Of a DNA stretch of 42,121 nt, positions 1 through 42,121 are shown piece by piece. The notes beneath the pieces were generated by a model. It worked only from the letters and a program-made list of their open reading frames with translations. It had not been told where the DNA came from and made no database searches. Source of the stretch: Gilliamella bombicola. Its GTDB lineage: Bacteria; Pseudomonadota; Gammaproteobacteria; Enterobacterales; Orbaceae. Position numbers and translations under genes: made by a program. Within the stretch, counting starts at the first letter, position 1, and each line of letters starts with the position of its first letter. The stretch is taken from NCBI RefSeq assembly GCF_900094945.1, contig NZ_FMAQ01000016.1:1-42121 (forward strand). Reading direction: 5' to 3'.

Positions 1-225
1 CGGCGGACAAATTTGTCTGGAACAAATTTGAACATCTGAGCACAGCGAAGATGGCCTCGAAGAGGCGAGTATCAGGATGATACGAGTAGCGTAGCCGTAG
101 GCCACATTCTGTAGCCAAAGCGTGGGATTGCAAAGGGAATTCGCTTTAATTCCCTTTGCTCGGACGTGGTCACTGTGGCTATTTTGTTCACCCAAGGTCA
201 AAACGTCCGAAACCTTGCCGTACTA
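1..225 (-). repeat. Structured repeat, copy A
   Basis: Read on the minus strand, this segment shares about 130 bases with the two copies at 41466-41595 and 41888-42010, including the run from GGTTTCGGACG to GGCCTACGGCTAC. Beyond that (below position 90) it diverges into its own tail. The tail has three perfect hairpins: 69-74 with 78-83, 54-58 with 62-66, and 8-16 with 22-30. It lies downstream of the adhesin-like gene and its terminator, in the same direction. The left edge is cut by the window, so the full length is unknown. No open frame is conserved between copies. Confidence 0.85.
91..210 (-). ncRNA. Candidate structured RNA core, copy A
   Basis: In minus-strand order the elements are: outer stem TCGGACGT (203-210) with ACGTCCGA (160-167); a 12-bp hairpin with lower stem GCAAA (148-159 with 130-141) and loop AAAGCG (142-147); CGCTTT (117-122), complementary to that loop; then GGCTAC (111-116) with GTGGCC (100-105), which contains a G-U pair. 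GTGGCC can also pair with the next GGCTAC (91-96) across a 3-nt loop. The same plan with compensatory stem changes is found at 41470-41589 and 41892-42008. Transcription is not shown by the sequence; function unknown. Confidence 0.55.
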
Positions 226-457: not shown

Positions 458-2074
458 CTAAGGTGTGGTGCAAATAGCCCGACCGCCGTTCTCGCCGAAG
501 TTGACGGAGCCGTCGACCGACTTGACACGGTAGGCAGCGCGAACATTTATTCTTCTGCCTGCCCAATAATTGCCGTCGACGAAGCCAATACCGTAGCCGC
601 TCACTTTTCCCCACTCCGAGAAAAAACCAGCACCTATGTAACGCATGAGATAATCACCAGATGAACGAGGCGTTGCGCCTAAATTGTTATGGTTTGAATT
701 GGTTAAATCCCCGACATCTGAAAGACGATAACCCGAAGAACGACACCAAGATATTTGAGAAGGCAGAGCAAACGGGGTACCACGATAGATGAACCACCGC
801 CTCAACACAAATCCATACTTCACCTCATGACCTCGACCATCCCTACCGACCAACTCAAATGTCTGTGGCAAAGATGATACATAATCGCTTAACGTTACCC
901 GTGTTACATAACTAGATTTATCTCTAATCCATATATCTTCGTCTGCGCCTTGTTTTGGCAATCTCCAACTCACCGTTACTCCTTGACTACCACTTGAGTT
1001 AACTGTCCAACTCAACTGACTTGCATCGATTCCAGCTATGTCCAAATCAAAATACAATCCTCTAGCACCTGTAGTTGGAAAGTTTTGGCCGTAAGATGAT
1101 GGATTTGTAGACTGAGTTAAAAAACCCTTTGTAGGAGACCATATGTTAGCTGGGCCTGCATAGCGAGGATTATCTCTAGAATCGATGCCAGTTGTACCAC
1201 CCAACAACAAATTAGGCCTTGCGTAACAAACACGTGGAACACTGTCATACGGATTGATATAATAATCCACCGTAGCTCCACTAAAACTGGTTCTATTAGG
1301 AACACCATACTGTGTCTGTAAATATCCCCCTGTACTACTTAAAGTTACCCTATAAGGAGCCTTACATACATCTAAATCATCACTACGACCAACGGTATTG
1401 CCATCCTTATCCCTAAACGATACCGATATATTCCCCGATGCGGTAACTCCATTAGCACCCTGTCCATCACCATCATCATCACGCCAATAATTATATCGAG
1501 TGATTAAATCACTTATACTCACTGAACTAACCGATGACGGGACTATCATATCTATATCATCCAAAGTATTCCCTGAATAAGGCAATTTTATTGGATTTGA
1601 TACACTTGATGTATTAGTAGACGGCGTGATTACCCGACCATTGTGAAACTCAATAGACAATAAACTATCTGTTGATATTGCCTTTGTCCGACCACCGTCG
1701 AACGTTAAATATGGCGCACTACCTTCAATGACCCTTGATGTATGTGCCGTTAATGCCACAGAACTCTGTGTATAGGACAATAACAACAATGCCGCAAAGA
1801 ATAATGCCAATTTAGATAAAAATGAAGGTCTAAACAATAATGGCGGTTTGAATACTAATGGCGGTCTTAATATCCACTTGGATATCGACGATAATTTTGT
1901 CGAAGAACCCGCCGAAAACATCGCCTGAAAAAACCTCGATGACGGCGTCGATTTCGCTACGCGAAATGACTTCGGTGATGAAAATAAGAACTGTGTCTGA
2001 TTTAGACTACGGTGAAATTGAAAAAGATTTAAGGCATAGGTTTGGCAGGCCATGTGCCATGTGCCATGTGCCAT
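458..2074 (-). CDS. Secreted adhesin-like surface protein with C-terminal DUF823-type region
   Basis: This 538-residue protein has a hydrophobic signal-like segment at about residues 86-108 (LALFFAALLLLSYTQSSVA), preceded by an unusually long basic N-terminus with imperfect hexapeptide repeats (RPPLVF, KPPLLF). The rest is Ser/Thr/Gly-rich and looks extracellular. The C-terminal part, with W-C, GYRL..VGDLTN and IGAGFFSEWG-type motifs ending in CTTP, recalls the DUF823 / intimin-invasin tip region; that assignment is from memory of the family. No beta-barrel or autotransporter domain is visible, so how it would be anchored is unclear. The start is uncertain. The frame opens inside a heptamer repeat at 2051-2074; an ATG at 1921 (residue 52) is a plausible alternative. 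Its base composition is richer in GC than its neighbours, and it stands between repeat copy A and the accessory genes, which suggests variable or acquired DNA. Confidence 0.6.
   Translation of the reverse strand: MAHGTWHMACQTYALNLFQFHRSLNQTQFLFSSPKSFRVAKSTPSSRFFQAMFSAGSSTKLSSISKWILRPPLVFKPPLLFRPSFLSKLALFFAALLLLSYTQSSVALTAHTSRVIEGSAPYLTFDGGRTKAISTDSLLSIEFHNGRVITPSTNTSSVSNPIKLPYSGNTLDDIDMIVPSSVSSVSISDLITRYNYWRDDDGDGQGANGVTASGNISVSFRDKDGNTVGRSDDLDVCKAPYRVTLSSTGGYLQTQYGVPNRTSFSGATVDYYINPYDSVPRVCYARPNLLLGGTTGIDSRDNPRYAGPANIWSPTKGFLTQSTNPSSYGQNFPTTGARGLYFDLDIAGIDASQLSWTVNSSGSQGVTVSWRLPKQGADEDIWIRDKSSYVTRVTLSDYVSSLPQTFELVGRDGRGHEVKYGFVLRRWFIYRGTPFALPSQISWCRSSGYRLSDVGDLTNSNHNNLGATPRSSGDYLMRYIGAGFFSEWGKVSGYGIGFVDGNYWAGRRINVRAAYRVKSVDGSVNFGENGGRAICTTP
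2051..2074 (-). repeat. Heptamer tandem repeat over the start codons
   Basis: Three full copies of CATGTGC plus CAT on the plus strand (ATGGCAC units on the minus strand). Each unit carries an ATG, and 7 is not a multiple of 3, so successive ATGs lie in different frames. ATGs at 2074 and 2053 share the frame of the adhesin-like gene. An upstream ATG at 2088, preceded by AGGA at 8 nt, is out of frame and opens a short reading frame of about 19 codons. Confidence 0.7.
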
Positions 2075-5502: not shown

Positions 5503-6489
5503 TTATTGCCCATGGCTGTCATCGTGGTTTTCGGTATGAATAACGTTAATATAGCTAGGGATGGCTGGCGTATTAACATAAAAGAATGCCCATTGAATCC
5601 CGTCTATTTTTTTAGTTTGACGTAAATATTGTTTTAGTAATATATCGTCCTGAGAATCATCTTCTGATTGCTGATGTATATAATGATCAATAAACTCATT
5701 ATATGTATCTTCATCAGTCGCTAAATATCCATTGTGATTTTCACAATATTGTTTATATAAATCGAATAATTTGTCGACAAAAACATTATATTCTTTTTCA
5801 ATATCAAACGTTTTAGGATTACTATACCCCAAAGTCGCAAAAATCTTATCAGCAATAGCAGAACCGGATTTTGATTTTTTTAATGCAGAAGAGAATAAAT
5901 AAGTTGGTAAAATAAAAAATAATCCCATAACAGCCATAAGAAGTAGCGAAAAATTATTTTTAGAAAAGGCCATTACTACAAAATAAAAGAAAGTAAATAC
6001 CCCCAATCCTCCAGCACCAATAAGGAAAAGACGCGGTAAAATAGGTATATTTAGTTTTGAATTGCCAGCTTCTGTTCCCTCTGTTGCATAAGGATGTAAC
6101 CATAAAAGCTTATCGGCAGGACGGCGTAATGCATAAGCAAAATAGCTTCCACCAGCTAGTGGATCAACAACCGCCTCCACGTAGTCTCCCTCATTAAAAA
6201 AGGTTCGACAAAATGCGCCTTCAATCACCTTATCACCTAATTTACAGCAAAAATACTGCTCAATATCGGCTGTATCGTAATCAATTTTTTCAATTTTTGC
6301 TGAAGTTATTTTCATACTATTAGCCATAGAAACTAAATCTAAATGCCCTATTGTGAGTAAATTGACATCAGGGCGTCCAGCTAGTTTGCGAGCATTAAGA
6401 TAACTTTCTCGCGTGTCATAGACCTCCAGATCGGTGATATAACCAGTAATAATTTGGTAATAATGGCTATCGCCTATATTCTGTTCCAT
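5503..6489 (-). CDS. Putative type VI secretion system effector-like membrane protein (paralogue 1)
   Basis: This 328-residue protein has a soluble N-terminal part of about 145 residues, two transmembrane segments (about 152-174 and 180-200) and a charged C-terminal part. The N-terminal part contains CCKLGDKVIEG and FFNEGDYVE (97-105), followed by an AYALRRP..LLW motif. I associate these with a family annotated in enteric bacteria as putative type VI secretion system effectors; that link is from memory and the activity is unknown. AAGGAAT lies ahead of the ATG at normal spacing. The gene lies 37 nt after the paralogous gene at 6527-7324, which it resembles in layout and in the EGDYVE motif, so the pair probably arose by duplication. 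No secretion-system structural gene (VgrG, Hcp, PAAR) is present in the window. Confidence 0.5.
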   Translation of the reverse strand: MEQNIGDSHYYQIITGYITDLEVYDTRESYLNARKLAGRPDVNLLTIGHLDLVSMANSMKITSAKIEKIDYDTADIEQYFCCKLGDKVIEGAFCRTFFNEGDYVEAVVDPLAGGSYFAYALRRPADKLLWLHPYATEGTEAGNSKLNIPILPRLFLIGAGGLGVFTFFYFVVMAFSKNNFSLLLMAVMGLFFILPTYLFSSALKKSKSGSAIADKIFATLGYSNPKTFDIEKEYNVFVDKLFDLYKQYCENHNGYLATDEDTYNEFIDHYIHQQSEDDSQDDILLKQYLRQTKKIDGIQWAFFYVNTPAIPSYINVIHTENHDDSHGQ

Positions 6490-26123: not shown

Positions 26124-27086
26124 ATGAAACGTTTTATTTTGTTAATAATAATGGTATTGCTTACGCCTTTTTACAGTTTTGCAGATACAATGAAAAATGT
26201 TGCCATTACGGCAATTGTTGAACATCCTTCATTAAATCAAATTCGTGATGGTGTCAAAGATGAACTAGTAAACAGCGGCTATAAGTTAAATGAAAATTTG
26301 ACTGTACAATATAAAAGTGCACAAGGAAGTAGCGCAAATGCAGCTCAAATTGCAAGGCAATTTACTACAACAAAGCCCGACGTTATTGTGGCAATTGCAA
26401 CACCAAGCGCACAAGCAACCGCTGCTGCAACTAAACACATTCCTATCGTCTTTGCTGGTATTACCGATCCAATAGCGGCTAAATTAGCTAAAGATTGGCA
26501 GCCAACAGGTACCAATATTACAGGGGTATCTGATTACCAAGAAATAGGTCCACAAATTGATTTCATGAAAAAAATCGTACCTAACGTTAAATCGATCGGT
26601 TATATTTATAGCCCGAGTGAAATTAACTCAACGGTTGTACTAAGACACCTTCAAACTTTATTAACAGAACAAGGGATCGCTCTTTTTGCTGTACCCGCTC
26701 AAAGAACAGCAGATATTTCAACAGCAGCAGCTTCTTTAAAAGGTAAAGTTGATTTGATCTATACCACAACGGATAATAATGTTGTTTCAGCCTACGAATC
26801 TTTAGTCAAATTTGCCAATGAAAACAAAATTCCCCTTTTAGCCTCATTTCCTGATGCCATTGAACGGGGAGCGGTTGCGGCATACGGCATGAGTTATTAT
26901 GACGTGGGTCGTCAATCAGGTAAACTTGTTGTACGTATTTTAAAAGGTGAAAATCCAGGGAGCATAGCCCCAGAAATAGGACAATCCCTACGCCTTGTCA
27001 TCAATACCGATGCAGCTAAAAAACAAGGCATCACATTAACACCAGAAGTCATTCAATCAGCAGATAAAGTCATTGGAAATCATTGA
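26124..27086 (+). CDS. ABC transporter substrate-binding protein (PF04392-type, TrpX-like), copy 1
   Basis: This 320-residue periplasmic protein has a signal peptide ending FYSFA before DTMKN. It then shows the ABC_sub_bind fold: VAITAIVEHP at the start, SAQGSSANAAQIARQF, KPDVIVAIATPSAQA, GYIYSPSEINS and LIYTTTDNNVVSAYE. Family members bind aromatic amino acids or related ligands (TrpX in streptococci); the ligand here is not determined. I begin at ATG 26124 rather than the GTG at 26115 because it gives a standard signal peptide. It is closely related to the next gene, evidently a tandem duplicate. A hairpin follows the gene. Confidence 0.88.
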   Translation: MKRFILLIIMVLLTPFYSFADTMKNVAITAIVEHPSLNQIRDGVKDELVNSGYKLNENLTVQYKSAQGSSANAAQIARQFTTTKPDVIVAIATPSAQATAAATKHIPIVFAGITDPIAAKLAKDWQPTGTNITGVSDYQEIGPQIDFMKKIVPNVKSIGYIYSPSEINSTVVLRHLQTLLTEQGIALFAVPAQRTADISTAAASLKGKVDLIYTTTDNNVVSAYESLVKFANENKIPLLASFPDAIERGAVAAYGMSYYDVGRQSGKLVVRILKGENPGSIAPEIGQSLRLVINTDAAKKQGITLTPEVIQSADKVIGNH

Positions 27087-27101
27087 ATAAAATAAATTAA
27101 C

Positions 27102-27129
27102 AGCCTTGTTTAATTAAGTAGACAAGGCT
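27102..27129 (+). terminator. Hairpin after the first binding protein
   Basis: AGCCTTGT (27102-27109) pairs with ACAAGGCT (27122-27129) around a 12-nt loop. There is no T run, so it may be a weak terminator or an RNA-stability element between the two binding-protein genes. Confidence 0.4.
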
Positions 27130-27357
27130 CTCAATATGGCAAACAACCGCTCCTAATCAGTAAACATTACTGACAGCCAACTTTAATTCAACAATAAAAT
27201 AATCCGTTACAACATCTTTTGTTTAATAATAACAATCATTCACAATTGTAACGAAATGTTTACACACAATATTTTTACTCTAGAAAATTATCTAATTTTG
27301 CTTTATAGTAACTCAATATTTAACTTATATGTAAAAAAAATATTACAGGAGCATTTT

Positions 27358-28338
27358 ATGATGCGTAATTCTATTATTAAGTTTTGCATACTAATGAGTT
27401 TATCATTAGTAACATTTTGTTCTTTTGCTGACTCTAAGACGGAACAAAAATTTGTAGCCATTACGGCCATCGTTGAACACCCAGCATTAGACAATGTACG
27501 TAAAGGAGTTGAAGATGAGTTAAAAGATAACGGTTATATTAATGGTGAAAATTTAAAATTACAGTTTGCTAGCGCGCAAGGAACTAGCGCAAATGCGGCA
27601 CAAATTGCCAAACAATTTGCTGCCAGTAAGCCTGATGTTATCGTCGGTATTGCAACCCCAAGTACACAAGCTTTAGTTGCCGCAACAAAACGTACTCCTA
27701 TCGTTTTTACAGCGGTAACAGATCCTGTTGCAGCAAAATTAATCCCAAGTTGGGAAGCATCAAAAACAAATGTAACAGGTGTTTCAGATGCCTTGTCTCT
27801 TGATTCTCAAATCGACATGATGCTAAAAATTAAACCTGATACTAAAAATATCGGTTATATTTACAGTCCAAGTGAAGTAAATTCCACAATTGTACTTAAA
27901 GAGTTACAAACCGCACTTGAAAAGCGCAATATAAAAATTACAGCAGTACCAGCACCACGAACATCAGATATATCAACCGCTGCTCGAAGTTTAAAAGGTA
28001 AAGTTGATTTAATCTATACTACAACAGATAATAACGTGGTTTCGGCTTATGAAGCTTTAGCAAAAGTGGCAAACGAAAGTAAAATCCCTCTAATTGCGTC
28101 AGATCCTGATTCAGCAGAACGAGGGGCAATTGCTGCTTTAGGTATGAGTTATTATGATCTTGGACGACAAGCTGGTAAAATTGTTATCCGCATACTTAAT
28201 GGCGAAAAACCAGGAGATATTCCCCCACAAGTGGGCAATATCACTCAACTCACAATTAACAAAAAAGCAGCTGAACGACAAGGTGTTACCTTATCTGAAG
28301 AGGTATTAAAGTCAGCCGCAAAAATTGTTGAAAAATAA
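27358..28338 (+). CDS. ABC transporter substrate-binding protein (PF04392-type, TrpX-like), copy 2
   Basis: This 326-residue protein is parallel to the preceding gene over its whole length, sharing VAITAIVEHP, NAAQIAKQFAASKPDVIV, GYIYSPSEVNS, KGKVDLIYTTTDNNVVSAYE and RGAIAALGMSYYDLGRQ. A signal peptide ends FCSFA before DSKTE. I start at ATG 27358 with ACAGGA ahead; the longer frame from 27256 is AT-rich and lacks a ribosome site. It is followed by the permease and ATPase, so this copy is the more direct part of the transport operon. The first copy may bind a different ligand or provide extra capacity. Confidence 0.88.
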   Translation: MMRNSIIKFCILMSLSLVTFCSFADSKTEQKFVAITAIVEHPALDNVRKGVEDELKDNGYINGENLKLQFASAQGTSANAAQIAKQFAASKPDVIVGIATPSTQALVAATKRTPIVFTAVTDPVAAKLIPSWEASKTNVTGVSDALSLDSQIDMMLKIKPDTKNIGYIYSPSEVNSTIVLKELQTALEKRNIKITAVPAPRTSDISTAARSLKGKVDLIYTTTDNNVVSAYEALAKVANESKIPLIASDPDSAERGAIAALGMSYYDLGRQAGKIVIRILNGEKPGDIPPQVGNITQLTINKKAAERQGVTLSEEVLKSAAKIVEK

Positions 28339-39904: not shown

Positions 39905-41326
39905 ATGTCAGATGCCATTTTTAAGGGGACTTTTTTTGAAAAGTTCCTATCAATTACTCATTATCAAACTCTCATTGGTATTGGGCTACTTCTCATCTGT
40001 TTTTTTGCGGTGATGAAGCCGTTACAAGATAAAAAAGTCAATTTTTCAGTTCGTATGTTAGTTGGCTTAATCCTTGGTGCTGTGCTTGGTCTAGGCATTC
40101 AAGCTGTAGCGGGCTTTCCTAATACATCAACCCTCTGGATGCAAGAAACCGCAACATGGTATGGGTTATTTGGTCGAGCATTCATTGCCTTTATCCGAAT
40201 GTTAGTGATACCACTTATTTTTGTATCGATTGTTAAAGTGATTATCGACTTTTCGGGCAAAAAAAATCTACCTCAAATTGCATTTAGAGGGATTTTTTGG
40301 TTACTGTTTACAACAGCCATTGCCTGTGTCGTTGGTATTTTGCTAGCGAATCTATTTTCTTTAGGTGAAATAAGCTCAAGCTCTGTACATCAAGCCCAAG
40401 CAAAACAATACACCAATATTATTGATACCTTTATAAATCTAATCCCAAGTAATATTATTGCCTCAATGGTAAATGAAAACATTGTTGGATTAGTCATCTT
40501 CTCTGCCTTAATGGGGCTTGCCGCCAATAGAATGGAAAAGAAGAACCCACAACCTATTGCACTCTTTAAAACATTTATCGAAGCGCTTTACAAAATCGTG
40601 ATGTCCATTGCGATGACAGTGATTAAATACATGCCTTACGCAGTCATTGCGTTACTGGCTCGCACTATTATTTCGAATGGAATACCGGCTATTATTCAGG
40701 TTTCTAGCTTTGTTGCTGCCATCTATATTGCCACATTGATTATGCTAATTGTACATATCGCCATTGTCTCGATTCATGGTGTTTCACCAATTATGTTTAT
40801 CAAAAAAGCACTAGGAACATGGTTATTAGCCTTTACGAGTCGCTCATCAGTTGGCTCTTTACCAATGACTATCTCAACGTTAACCGTTCGAATGGGAGTA
40901 AATACCGGCACGGCAAATTTAGTCGGCTCACTTGGCAGCACGATGGGAATGAACGGTTGTGCTGGTTTTTTCCCTGCTTTACTTGCCGTGATGGTAGCGC
41001 ATATGGTTGGTATTGAAACGAATATCCAATTTTATATTATGCTTGTCATTGTGGTAGTTATTGGCTCAATCGGCATCGCCGGCATTCCCGGCACAGCAAC
41101 TGTCGCTGCAACCGTTGTTTTATCTGGTATGGGGATGGCTGAATACTTCCCATTAATTGGGATGGTTTTAGCTGTTGATCCAATTATTGATATGGCAAGA
41201 ACTTTAGCCAATGTATCTGGCGCTATGACAGCGGCTGTGGCGACTGATCGTGAAATTGGCCTTATGGATATGGCTGTGTATAACGATCCTAATATTACTC
41301 TTGAAAATGAGCCGTCAGAAGTTTGA
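39905..41326 (+). CDS. Cation symporter, probable L-cystine transporter (TcyP-like)
   Basis: This 473-residue protein of the dicarboxylate/amino acid:cation symporter family has about eight membrane helices and two re-entrant loops. TSRSSVGSLP is the serine-rich hairpin 1. NGCAGFFPALLAVM carries the MNGCAG variant of the substrate helix seen in TcyP (YdjN) cystine carriers, in place of the NMDG/NLDG of glutamate and dicarboxylate members. AVDPIIDMARTLANVSG is the helix-8 signature. Cystine import next to a disulfide reductase makes metabolic sense, but another small substrate cannot be excluded. GAGAGG precedes the ATG. A terminator that is part of the repeated unit follows. Confidence 0.82.
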   Translation: MSDAIFKGTFFEKFLSITHYQTLIGIGLLLICFFAVMKPLQDKKVNFSVRMLVGLILGAVLGLGIQAVAGFPNTSTLWMQETATWYGLFGRAFIAFIRMLVIPLIFVSIVKVIIDFSGKKNLPQIAFRGIFWLLFTTAIACVVGILLANLFSLGEISSSSVHQAQAKQYTNIIDTFINLIPSNIIASMVNENIVGLVIFSALMGLAANRMEKKNPQPIALFKTFIEALYKIVMSIAMTVIKYMPYAVIALLARTIISNGIPAIIQVSSFVAAIYIATLIMLIVHIAIVSIHGVSPIMFIKKALGTWLLAFTSRSSVGSLPMTISTLTVRMGVNTGTANLVGSLGSTMGMNGCAGFFPALLAVMVAHMVGIETNIQFYIMLVIVVVIGSIGIAGIPGTATVAATVVLSGMGMAEYFPLIGMVLAVDPIIDMARTLANVSGAMTAAVATDREIGLMDMAVYNDPNITLENEPSEV

Positions 41327-41402
41327 TGGTGATGAGGGGGGTGTTCTAACTTGATGTAGGTGTTGATTTAAAAAACTTTAATAAAATCAATACCTTTTCT
41401 GA

Positions 41403-41434
41403 CTGATTTTTGGGTGTAAAATCAGGCCTTTTTT
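41403..41434 (+). terminator. Terminator after the symporter gene (unit B)
   Basis: CTGATTTT (41403-41410) pairs with AAAATCAG (41418-41425) around a 7-nt loop, followed by GCC and six Ts. It presumably ends the symporter message. Because it is part of the tandem unit, a second version lies ahead of copy C. Confidence 0.85.
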
Positions 41435-41469
41435 GGGTTGGTGGATAGAATAAATTGGGTGCGCAGGTT

Positions 41470-41589
41470 TCGGACGTTTTGACCTTGGGTGGACAAAATA
41501 GCTATTGTGACCACGTCCGAGCTAAGGGAATTAAAGCGAATTCCCTTAGCAATCCCACGCTTTGGCTGCAGAATGTGGCCTACGGCTAC
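41470..41589 (+). ncRNA. Candidate structured RNA core, copy B
   Basis: Elements in order: TCGGACGT (41470-41477) with ACGTCCGA (41513-41520); hairpin GCTAAGGGAATT (41521-41532), loop AAAGCG, AATTCCCTTAGC (41539-41550); CGCTTT (41558-41563), complementary to the loop; GGCTGC (41564-41569) with GTGGCC (41575-41580), using two G-U pairs; and a competing GGCTAC (41584-41589). The G-U pairs are valid only for plus-strand RNA. Expression and function are unknown. Confidence 0.55.
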
Positions 41590-41827
41590 CCTCCGCCGTC
41601 GCTCGGTCTTGACGCACCGGCTATGATTCGCTCCCGGTGAAGCATAGCCTCGCCAAACATCCCTGTTTGGCGTGCTAACCTCGCTCTGTTGTCGGCACAT
41701 TCTGACGCCGGAATAAGACAAACAACATAACTATCGTTTTTGGGATGGGTTGTTGTGTTTTTGTTAGGCGGTTTTTGTTAAAAAATAGCTCAAAAAAACT
41801 TTAATAAAATCAATACCTTTCCTGACC

Positions 41828-41856
41828 GATTTTTTGGCTAAAAATCAGGCCTTTTT
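41828..41856 (+). terminator. Terminator-like hairpin ahead of copy C
   Basis: GATTTTT (41828-41834) pairs with AAAAATC (41840-41846), followed by AGGCC and five Ts. It matches the terminator ahead of copy B in position within the unit, but its outer stem has a mismatch. It could end a transcript that reads through copy B. Confidence 0.6.
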
Positions 41857-41891
41857 GTTTTGGTGAATAGGATAAATTGGGTGCAGTGGTT

Positions 41892-42008
41892 TCGGACGTT
41901 TTGACCTTGGGTGAATAAAATAGCTATCGTGACCACGTCCGAGTCAGGGAATTAAAGCGAATTCCCTGACAACCCACGCTTTGGCTGCAGAATGTGGCCT
42001 ACGGCTAC
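41892..42008 (+). ncRNA. Candidate structured RNA core, copy C
   Basis: Outer stem 41892-41899 with 41935-41942; hairpin GTCAGGGAATT (41943-41953), loop AAAGCG (41954-41959), AATTCCCTGAC (41960-41970); CGCTTT (41977-41982); GGCTGC (41983-41988) with GTGGCC (41994-41999), or GTGGCC with GGCTAC (42003-42008). The main stem is one pair shorter than in copies A and B because a base is missing on both sides, which keeps the pairing but would break any reading frame. Confidence 0.55.
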
Positions 42009-42121
42009 CCGACGCCGCCGCTCGGTCTTAACGCACCGGCTATGATTCGCTCCCGGCGAAGCATAGCCTCGCCAAACATCCCTGTTTGGCGTGCTAACCT
42101 CGCTCTGTTGTCGGCACATTC

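Follow-up and report, generated by a model that had tools for sequence, protein, structure and literature searches.

A structured element repeated throughout the genome of Gilliamella bombicola, whose genus lives in the bee gut, is, in our reading, a diverged and amplified CsrB-like decoy RNA for the protein CsrA, and we hold this reading with moderate confidence. Three copies lie in the window, which is the whole stretch of 42,121 nucleotides that was analyzed and a complete contig (C9) of a draft assembly of 29 contigs. Both ends of the contig fall inside copies of the repeat, as expected, since short reads cannot cross it. The initial annotation had placed a repeated core at 91-210 (copy A), 41470-41589 (copy B) and 41892-42008 (copy C), and these positions were borne out; the cores of A and B are 94% complementary across 128 nt. 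The compensated changes reported for the stem of its hairpin were likewise found, with GCAAAGGGAATT/AATTCCCTTTGC in copy A (130-159), GCTAAGGGAATT/AATTCCCTTAGC in copy B (41521-41550) and GTCAGGGAATT/AATTCCCTGAC in copy C (41943-41970). The extent had to be revised: copies B and C are conserved about 93 nt past the ends first given, into GGA-loop hairpins on the opposite strand. The element, whose extent was set by comparison between species, is thus larger than first stated, at about 220-300 nt.

The strand that carries these loops, called the GGA strand here, is the minus strand in copies B and C, the plus strand in copy A. Along it the element consists of GAGGTTAGCA, the hairpins H1 and H2, a conserved stretch containing GGTGCGT, and then H5, H3 and H4. 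The full match to R1, our model of the element, covers 41466-41682 on the minus strand for copy B (model positions 1-217, 237.3 bits) and 41888-42101 on the minus strand for copy C (225.5 bits), both copies having been used in building R1. Copy A (1-214, plus) holds the 3′ part and two extra GGA-loop hairpins; its H1 and H2 would fall past the contig end. H1 is a 9-bp hairpin with a loop that is mostly GGGA (copy B 41651-41672, copy C 42070-42091, both minus), and in copy B this loop lies within the CsrA-consensus-like ACAGGGATGT. H2 is a two-part hairpin (copy B 41619-41649, copy C 42038-42068, both minus) with loops of CCGGGAG, as in copy B, TCTGGAA, TCAGGAA and similar; its stems vary widely among copies, and the GGA is mostly retained. 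H5 is a short GCC-GTA-GGC hairpin (41578-41586, minus) that covaries across species. H3, the hairpin described in the initial annotation, has 12 bp and the loop CGCTTT on the minus strand in copy B (41521-41550); it lies at 41943-41970 (minus) in copy C and 130-159 (plus) in copy A, and its loop starts with CGC in 87 of 113 copies. H4 is a long-range stem, TCGGACGT/ACGTCCGA, spanning 41470-41520 in copy B (minus; arms 41470-41477 and 41513-41520), 41892-41942 in copy C (minus; arms 41892-41899 and 41935-41942) and 160-210 in copy A (plus; arms 160-167 and 203-210). The two extra hairpins of copy A, both with GGA in the loop, are CAAATTTG-TCTGGAA-CAAATTTG (8-30, plus) and GTATCAGGATGATAC (69-83, plus). 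They recur in the long copies (at least 240 nt, 17 of the 113 distinct copies), the first in 16 of the 17 at no more than two substitutions and the second in 15.

Three copies alone are thin evidence, and it is the genome-wide family that bears the pattern out. Collecting the genomic copies gave at least 57 matched places in G. bombicola, a lower bound as 40 of 68 candidates were scored, and at least 39 core copies lie in the stretches of this genome that were examined. BLAST found matches in 18 of 34 other Gilliamella genomes; the 25 genomes searched outside the genus gave no match. Of 35 Gilliamella genomes, 24 had matches to the model R1; three of the 11 genomes with no match are less than 80% complete. 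The four richest genomes (G. bombicola and those labeled G001, G023 and G030) each had at least 39 matches; because no more than 39 candidates were scored, these genomes may contain more. A class-wide search of 274 genomes, with filters that lose weak matches, returned G. bombicola as its sole match. R1 also had one listed match apiece in two genera from other families, at locus L122 (genome G046) and locus L119 (genome G050); these two loci are candidates for the ancestral RNA gene.

The claim that selection acts on pairing was strongly supported by covariation in alignments of 41 and 113 copies. The smaller alignment, A1, was hand-picked from eleven genomes, with its structure named from copy B. 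In A1, 95.9% of cells pair and both sides change in 25 of 46 pairs, versus 16.4 in shuffles and 4-9 with slid partners; the covariation score was reached by 0 of 500 shuffles. Of the five measures, the count of further pair types was the exception in A1 and did not rise above the shuffles (438 of 500 reach the value). R1 matches at E ≤ 1e-30 numbered 129 in 67 sources, some repeated in overlapping loci, and 113 of them are distinct; these come from 15 genomes, with 30 copies from G001 and 29 from G. bombicola. This alignment was fitted by the model and contains the A1 copies, and as a whole it is therefore biased towards the structure; in it 96.1% of cells pair. All five measures exceed every shuffle (0 of 500 in each case); the shuffle counts of either alignment are not to be read as probabilities, since the rows are related. 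Two-sided changes occur in 29 of 46 pairs, versus 6-9 with slid partners, which argues that the structure is selected. Most changes are in H3, H2 and H5, with H3 ranking among the stems that have the strongest support. The short stem P0, which would close H1 and H2, is 98-99% paired and nearly invariant, so that covariation is no test of it; its mean pair probability on the GGA strand is 0.12. A four-pair form of P0 was dropped because its last base is already in an H1 pair that covaries.

The view that the element matches no known RNA family stands for the half with H3 and H4, which had no Rfam match, and has to be given up for the 5′ half, which resembles TwoAYGGAY (RF01731). At the gathering level the Rfam search of the window was empty. 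A lenient cmscan search gave RF01731 on the minus strand of copy B (41607-41677, 40.1 bits, E 8e-5, RF01731 positions 43-120, taking in P0, H1 and H2) and of copy C (42026-42096, 37.8 bits, E 2.7e-4), both below the cut-off of 43 bits. At 20 loci of the G. bombicola genome, 13 RF01731 matches were listed at E ≤ 1, five of them over the cut-off (44.1-45.9 bits). A genome-wide search of the same genome listed three matches, none over the cut-off; the rest were, we suppose, missed by its loose initial screen. Among nine further loci, L122, from the other genus, matched over the full length at 59.4 bits; L041, L042 and L038 (two matches), all from Gilliamella, scored 35.6-42.3 bits, below the cut-off; and L119, L040, L039, L047 and L046 had no match at E ≤ 0.1. 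In the window, the G. bombicola loci and the further loci alike, every RF01731 match is on the GGA strand and none on the opposite one. Other below-cut-off Rfam matches were set aside, namely GcvB in the window and PyrG leader, mir-375, SNORD43, AbsR28 and CRISPR-DR4 at the G. bombicola loci; those to CRISPR-DR4 coincide with mini CRISPR arrays.

TwoAYGGAY and the element share two adjacent GGA-loop hairpins, which in the element would likewise be closed by a short stem, and in the alignments of the matches they have letters in common outside the hairpins, with AGCA before H1 and CGG..GCGU after H2. The matches in the window and elsewhere in G. bombicola span RF01731 positions 43-120 and differ from the family in lacking its long outer stem (1-42 and 121-168); positions 1-168 are spanned by L122 and by one weak match in genome G006 (L042). 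The element further differs in the extra GGA hairpins of its long copies, in the H3/H4 half that follows, and in its copy number, which in several species reaches dozens per genome. Half of it appears to be a diverged TwoAYGGAY RNA, on the strand opposite to the one first proposed, and the element is therefore not wholly undescribed. Rfam types TwoAYGGAY as Cis-reg and places it in clan CL00106. A passage of its original description calls it a probable RNA that is probably not cis-regulatory (PMC2864571), and a passage of the RMfam paper gives it as a predicted CsrA-binding sRNA (PMC4333381). None of the following was met in the portions of the literature searched, and all of it appears to be new: the composite with the H3/H4 half, its amplification, and its association with CRISPR arrays and with a protein family.

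The loops point to CsrA. According to the portion consulted of a SELEX study, the CsrA consensus is RUACARGGAUGU, with ACA and GGA fully conserved and the GGA favoring a hairpin loop (PMC4347634). The string ACAGGGATGT, which H1 carries in copy B as in copy C and which 67 of 113 copies contain overall, fits 10 of 10 positions of this consensus (3-12, from ACA on). A short loop with GGA was found in 107 of 113 copies for H1 and 103 of 113 for H2 when counted in strict loop columns, the stems being different; the H2 exceptions include five copies with inserts and four without letters in those columns, and a looser count gave 106 and 108. Under a loose rule for GGA hairpins (a stem of at least five pairs, G-U allowed), 89 of 96 short copies have at least two on the GGA strand, and all 17 long copies have at least three; the opposite strand has none in 53 of 96 short and 16 of 17 long copies. 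A single csrA gene is present in G. bombicola, and its product of 64 amino acids looks ordinary, with residues 1-53 matching solved chains that are named CsrA or carbon storage regulator. L4 and R44, which we take to be critical CsrA residues, are both present. The CsrB model RF00018 had no match at E ≤ 1 in this genome. The element is thus like CsrB/CsrC and RsmX/Y/Z in having several CsrA-consensus-like hairpins with GGA in the loop, and unlike them in lacking an RF00018 match and in occurring as dispersed and tandem repeats, not as one gene.

The strand is the weak point of the decoy reading. The plus strand implied for copies B and C in the initial annotation is probably wrong, as RF01731 and the GGA loops are on the minus strand, although folding leans to plus. 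For copy B the folding z-score is -5.59 on the plus strand versus -3.47 on the minus. RNAalifold gave -42.3 for the GGA strand versus -46.7 for its opposite, and in 18 of 41 copies it was the GGA strand that had the lower folding energy. On the GGA strand, G-U cells exceed A-C cells (65 vs 44; well-paired rows 32 vs 22), an excess that leans weakly to this strand and is not decisive. Scans for promoters and terminators gave nothing firm: in the window region promoter-like sites are on the plus strand only (3 vs 0.9 in shuffles) and there is no terminator-like site, and on the GGA strand nine promoter-like sites were found in G006 (L143) versus 5.2 (SD 2.5) expected, and one in G001 versus 4.8. 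We infer that the element is transcribed, and from the GGA strand, and that CsrA would bind its loops.

The chief rival of the CsrA decoy is a selfish DNA repeat of the REP or MITE type, a possible reading that we rate as clearly less probable. The hairpins would act as single-stranded DNA during copying or moving, and the GGA loops would serve a mobilizing enzyme or be relics of an RNA gene. REP/BIME elements with RAYT transposases are short structured intergenic repeats in many copies, and BOX elements of Streptococcus pneumoniae are modular structured intergenic repeats. The element is likewise short, structured, intergenic and multicopy. It is dispersed in dozens of copies and also stands in tandem, with many copies about 385-460 bp apart in G001 and G006. 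Its presence varies between strains at one site: the gltP-like protein at 39905-41326 has relatives 97-99% identical in six named Gilliamella records, and in a profile search of 23 gltP loci the element was found in strain Pra-s52 (L061) and a piece of it in App6-5 (L060), whereas close relatives such as Pas-s25 (L059) had no element within 700 bp downstream of gltP. Repeats have therefore been gained and lost between strains. The closeness of the G-U and A-C counts and the lack of a GGA-strand preference in folding also suit a DNA element. Against it, the loops fit the consensus of a protein-binding RNA, two genera from other families have one listed match apiece, of which one exceeds the RF01731 cut-off, and no inverted ends were seen by eye in the conserved element. 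It differs from REP/BIME in its several hairpins, its 220-300 nt and its conserved GGA loops, and from BOX, which it resembles by description as a modular structured intergenic repeat, in its CsrA-type motif. Y1_Tnp (the RAYT/IS200-type domain, PF01797) is absent from G. bombicola and was found in 5 of 14 control genomes, which speaks against mobilization by a RAYT in this genome.

Other contents of the window were also surveyed. There was no match to phage and plasmid collections, and no tRNA or tmRNA was found in the window. Protein coding by the element was rejected, the ORF that crosses copy B (41422-41721) being without an NCBIfam match at E ≤ 0.1. A flanking motif, M1 (41370-41433, plus), has a core pattern found at 123 genome places: ATAAAATCAATACCTTNNCTGAC at no more than two mismatches occurs 64 + 59 times, versus 0 in the control, and in the window it lies at 41381-41403 and 41804-41826. 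This motif flanks the element in both orientations. At 5503-6489 lies a match to NCBIfam NF041560, a family of putative type VI secretion effectors (96.1 bits, cut-off 90). A pair of direct repeats, 293 and 104 nt long (26553-28235, 70-73% identity, 1255 bp apart), probably represents paralogous genes.

The element keeps company with a large family of proteins of about 540 amino acids, which has 65 matched stretches at about 50 places in the 2.3-Mb genome. The member in the window (458-2074, minus) had no Pfam, NCBIfam or PHROG match. Such an association would be expected of a cis-acting leader or trailer regulating its neighbors, above all this family, through CsrA, and 17 of 27 clusters of core copies are indeed within 2 kb of a member, versus 9.2% of the counted contigs taken up by such zones; several other clusters are at contig ends, where neighbors cannot be judged. 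We nevertheless think regulation in cis improbable, as the element lies both upstream and downstream of neighboring genes and on the same and the opposite strand, and as no member was found among ORFs of at least 100 amino acids in seven array stretches examined in G001. At L145 and L146 in G023, inverted pairs of elements, one strong and one weak, lie between tandem members of the family.

CRISPR arrays are the second companion. Ten mini arrays were found in G. bombicola, on contigs C8, C11, C15, C16, C17, C18, C20 and C24, with 25 repeats in all at no more than one mismatch. Each has one to four good repeats, the last repeat being degenerate, and the eight arrays not cut by a contig end have a common leader. 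The 28-nt repeat is presumably type I-F-like; the spacers are 32 nt, with one irregular spacing in C16. One spacer is common to two arrays, another nearly so, and the rest differ. Besides the arrays themselves, repeat flanks and one self-complementary spacer, the spacers gave only 13-17 nt matches in the G. bombicola stretches examined, and a Cas1 gene is present in the genome. All ten arrays are followed on the same strand by a core copy, at 242-341 bp, which would suit a functional role within CRISPR loci, for instance as a trailer terminating or stabilizing the pre-crRNA. We find this very hard to credit, because 24 of 39 core copies have no array within 1 kb in their contig (some being cut off by contig ends), elements come before the array in three loci of G006, and CRISPR-like repeats in G001 (no more than five substitutions) are on the other strand from the element.

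A further proposal, which we consider unlikely, is that a CsrA-decoy gene related to TwoAYGGAY became a genomic repeat, multiplying in Gilliamella, acquiring extra GGA hairpins in some copies and coming to lie behind each mini array found in this genome. Pre-crRNA would then include CsrA decoys, tying immunity to the Csr switch. Control of CRISPR-Cas by the Rsm/Csr pathway is reported for Serratia in a passage of a published study (PMC8450108).

As a CsrA decoy, the element would most likely act in the manner of CsrB and RsmZ. The product would be a structured RNA, about 220 nt long and reaching about 300 nt in long copies; copy A would be read from the plus strand, copies B and C from the minus strand. 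Its 5′ half would be a diverged TwoAYGGAY RNA with two side-by-side GGA-loop hairpins on a short closing stem, to which most long copies would have added two further GGA-loop hairpins, and its 3′ half would comprise the covarying hairpin, mostly with a CGC loop, and the long-range stem. The loops would bind CsrA dimers and hold them off mRNAs, which is the effect we infer for the element. Amplification in part of the genus would have produced the dozens of dispersed and tandem copies.

If transcribed, the copies would supply at least about 80 predicted CsrA decoy sites per cell (at least 39 copies, mostly with at least two sites each), outside a recognized CsrB gene. Were the decoy reading true, the dosage of decoys would be evolvable through repeat expansion, and TwoAYGGAY, whose function is predicted, would gain a natural system of more than 100 variants. 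The Csr switch would then also be linked to CRISPR arrays.
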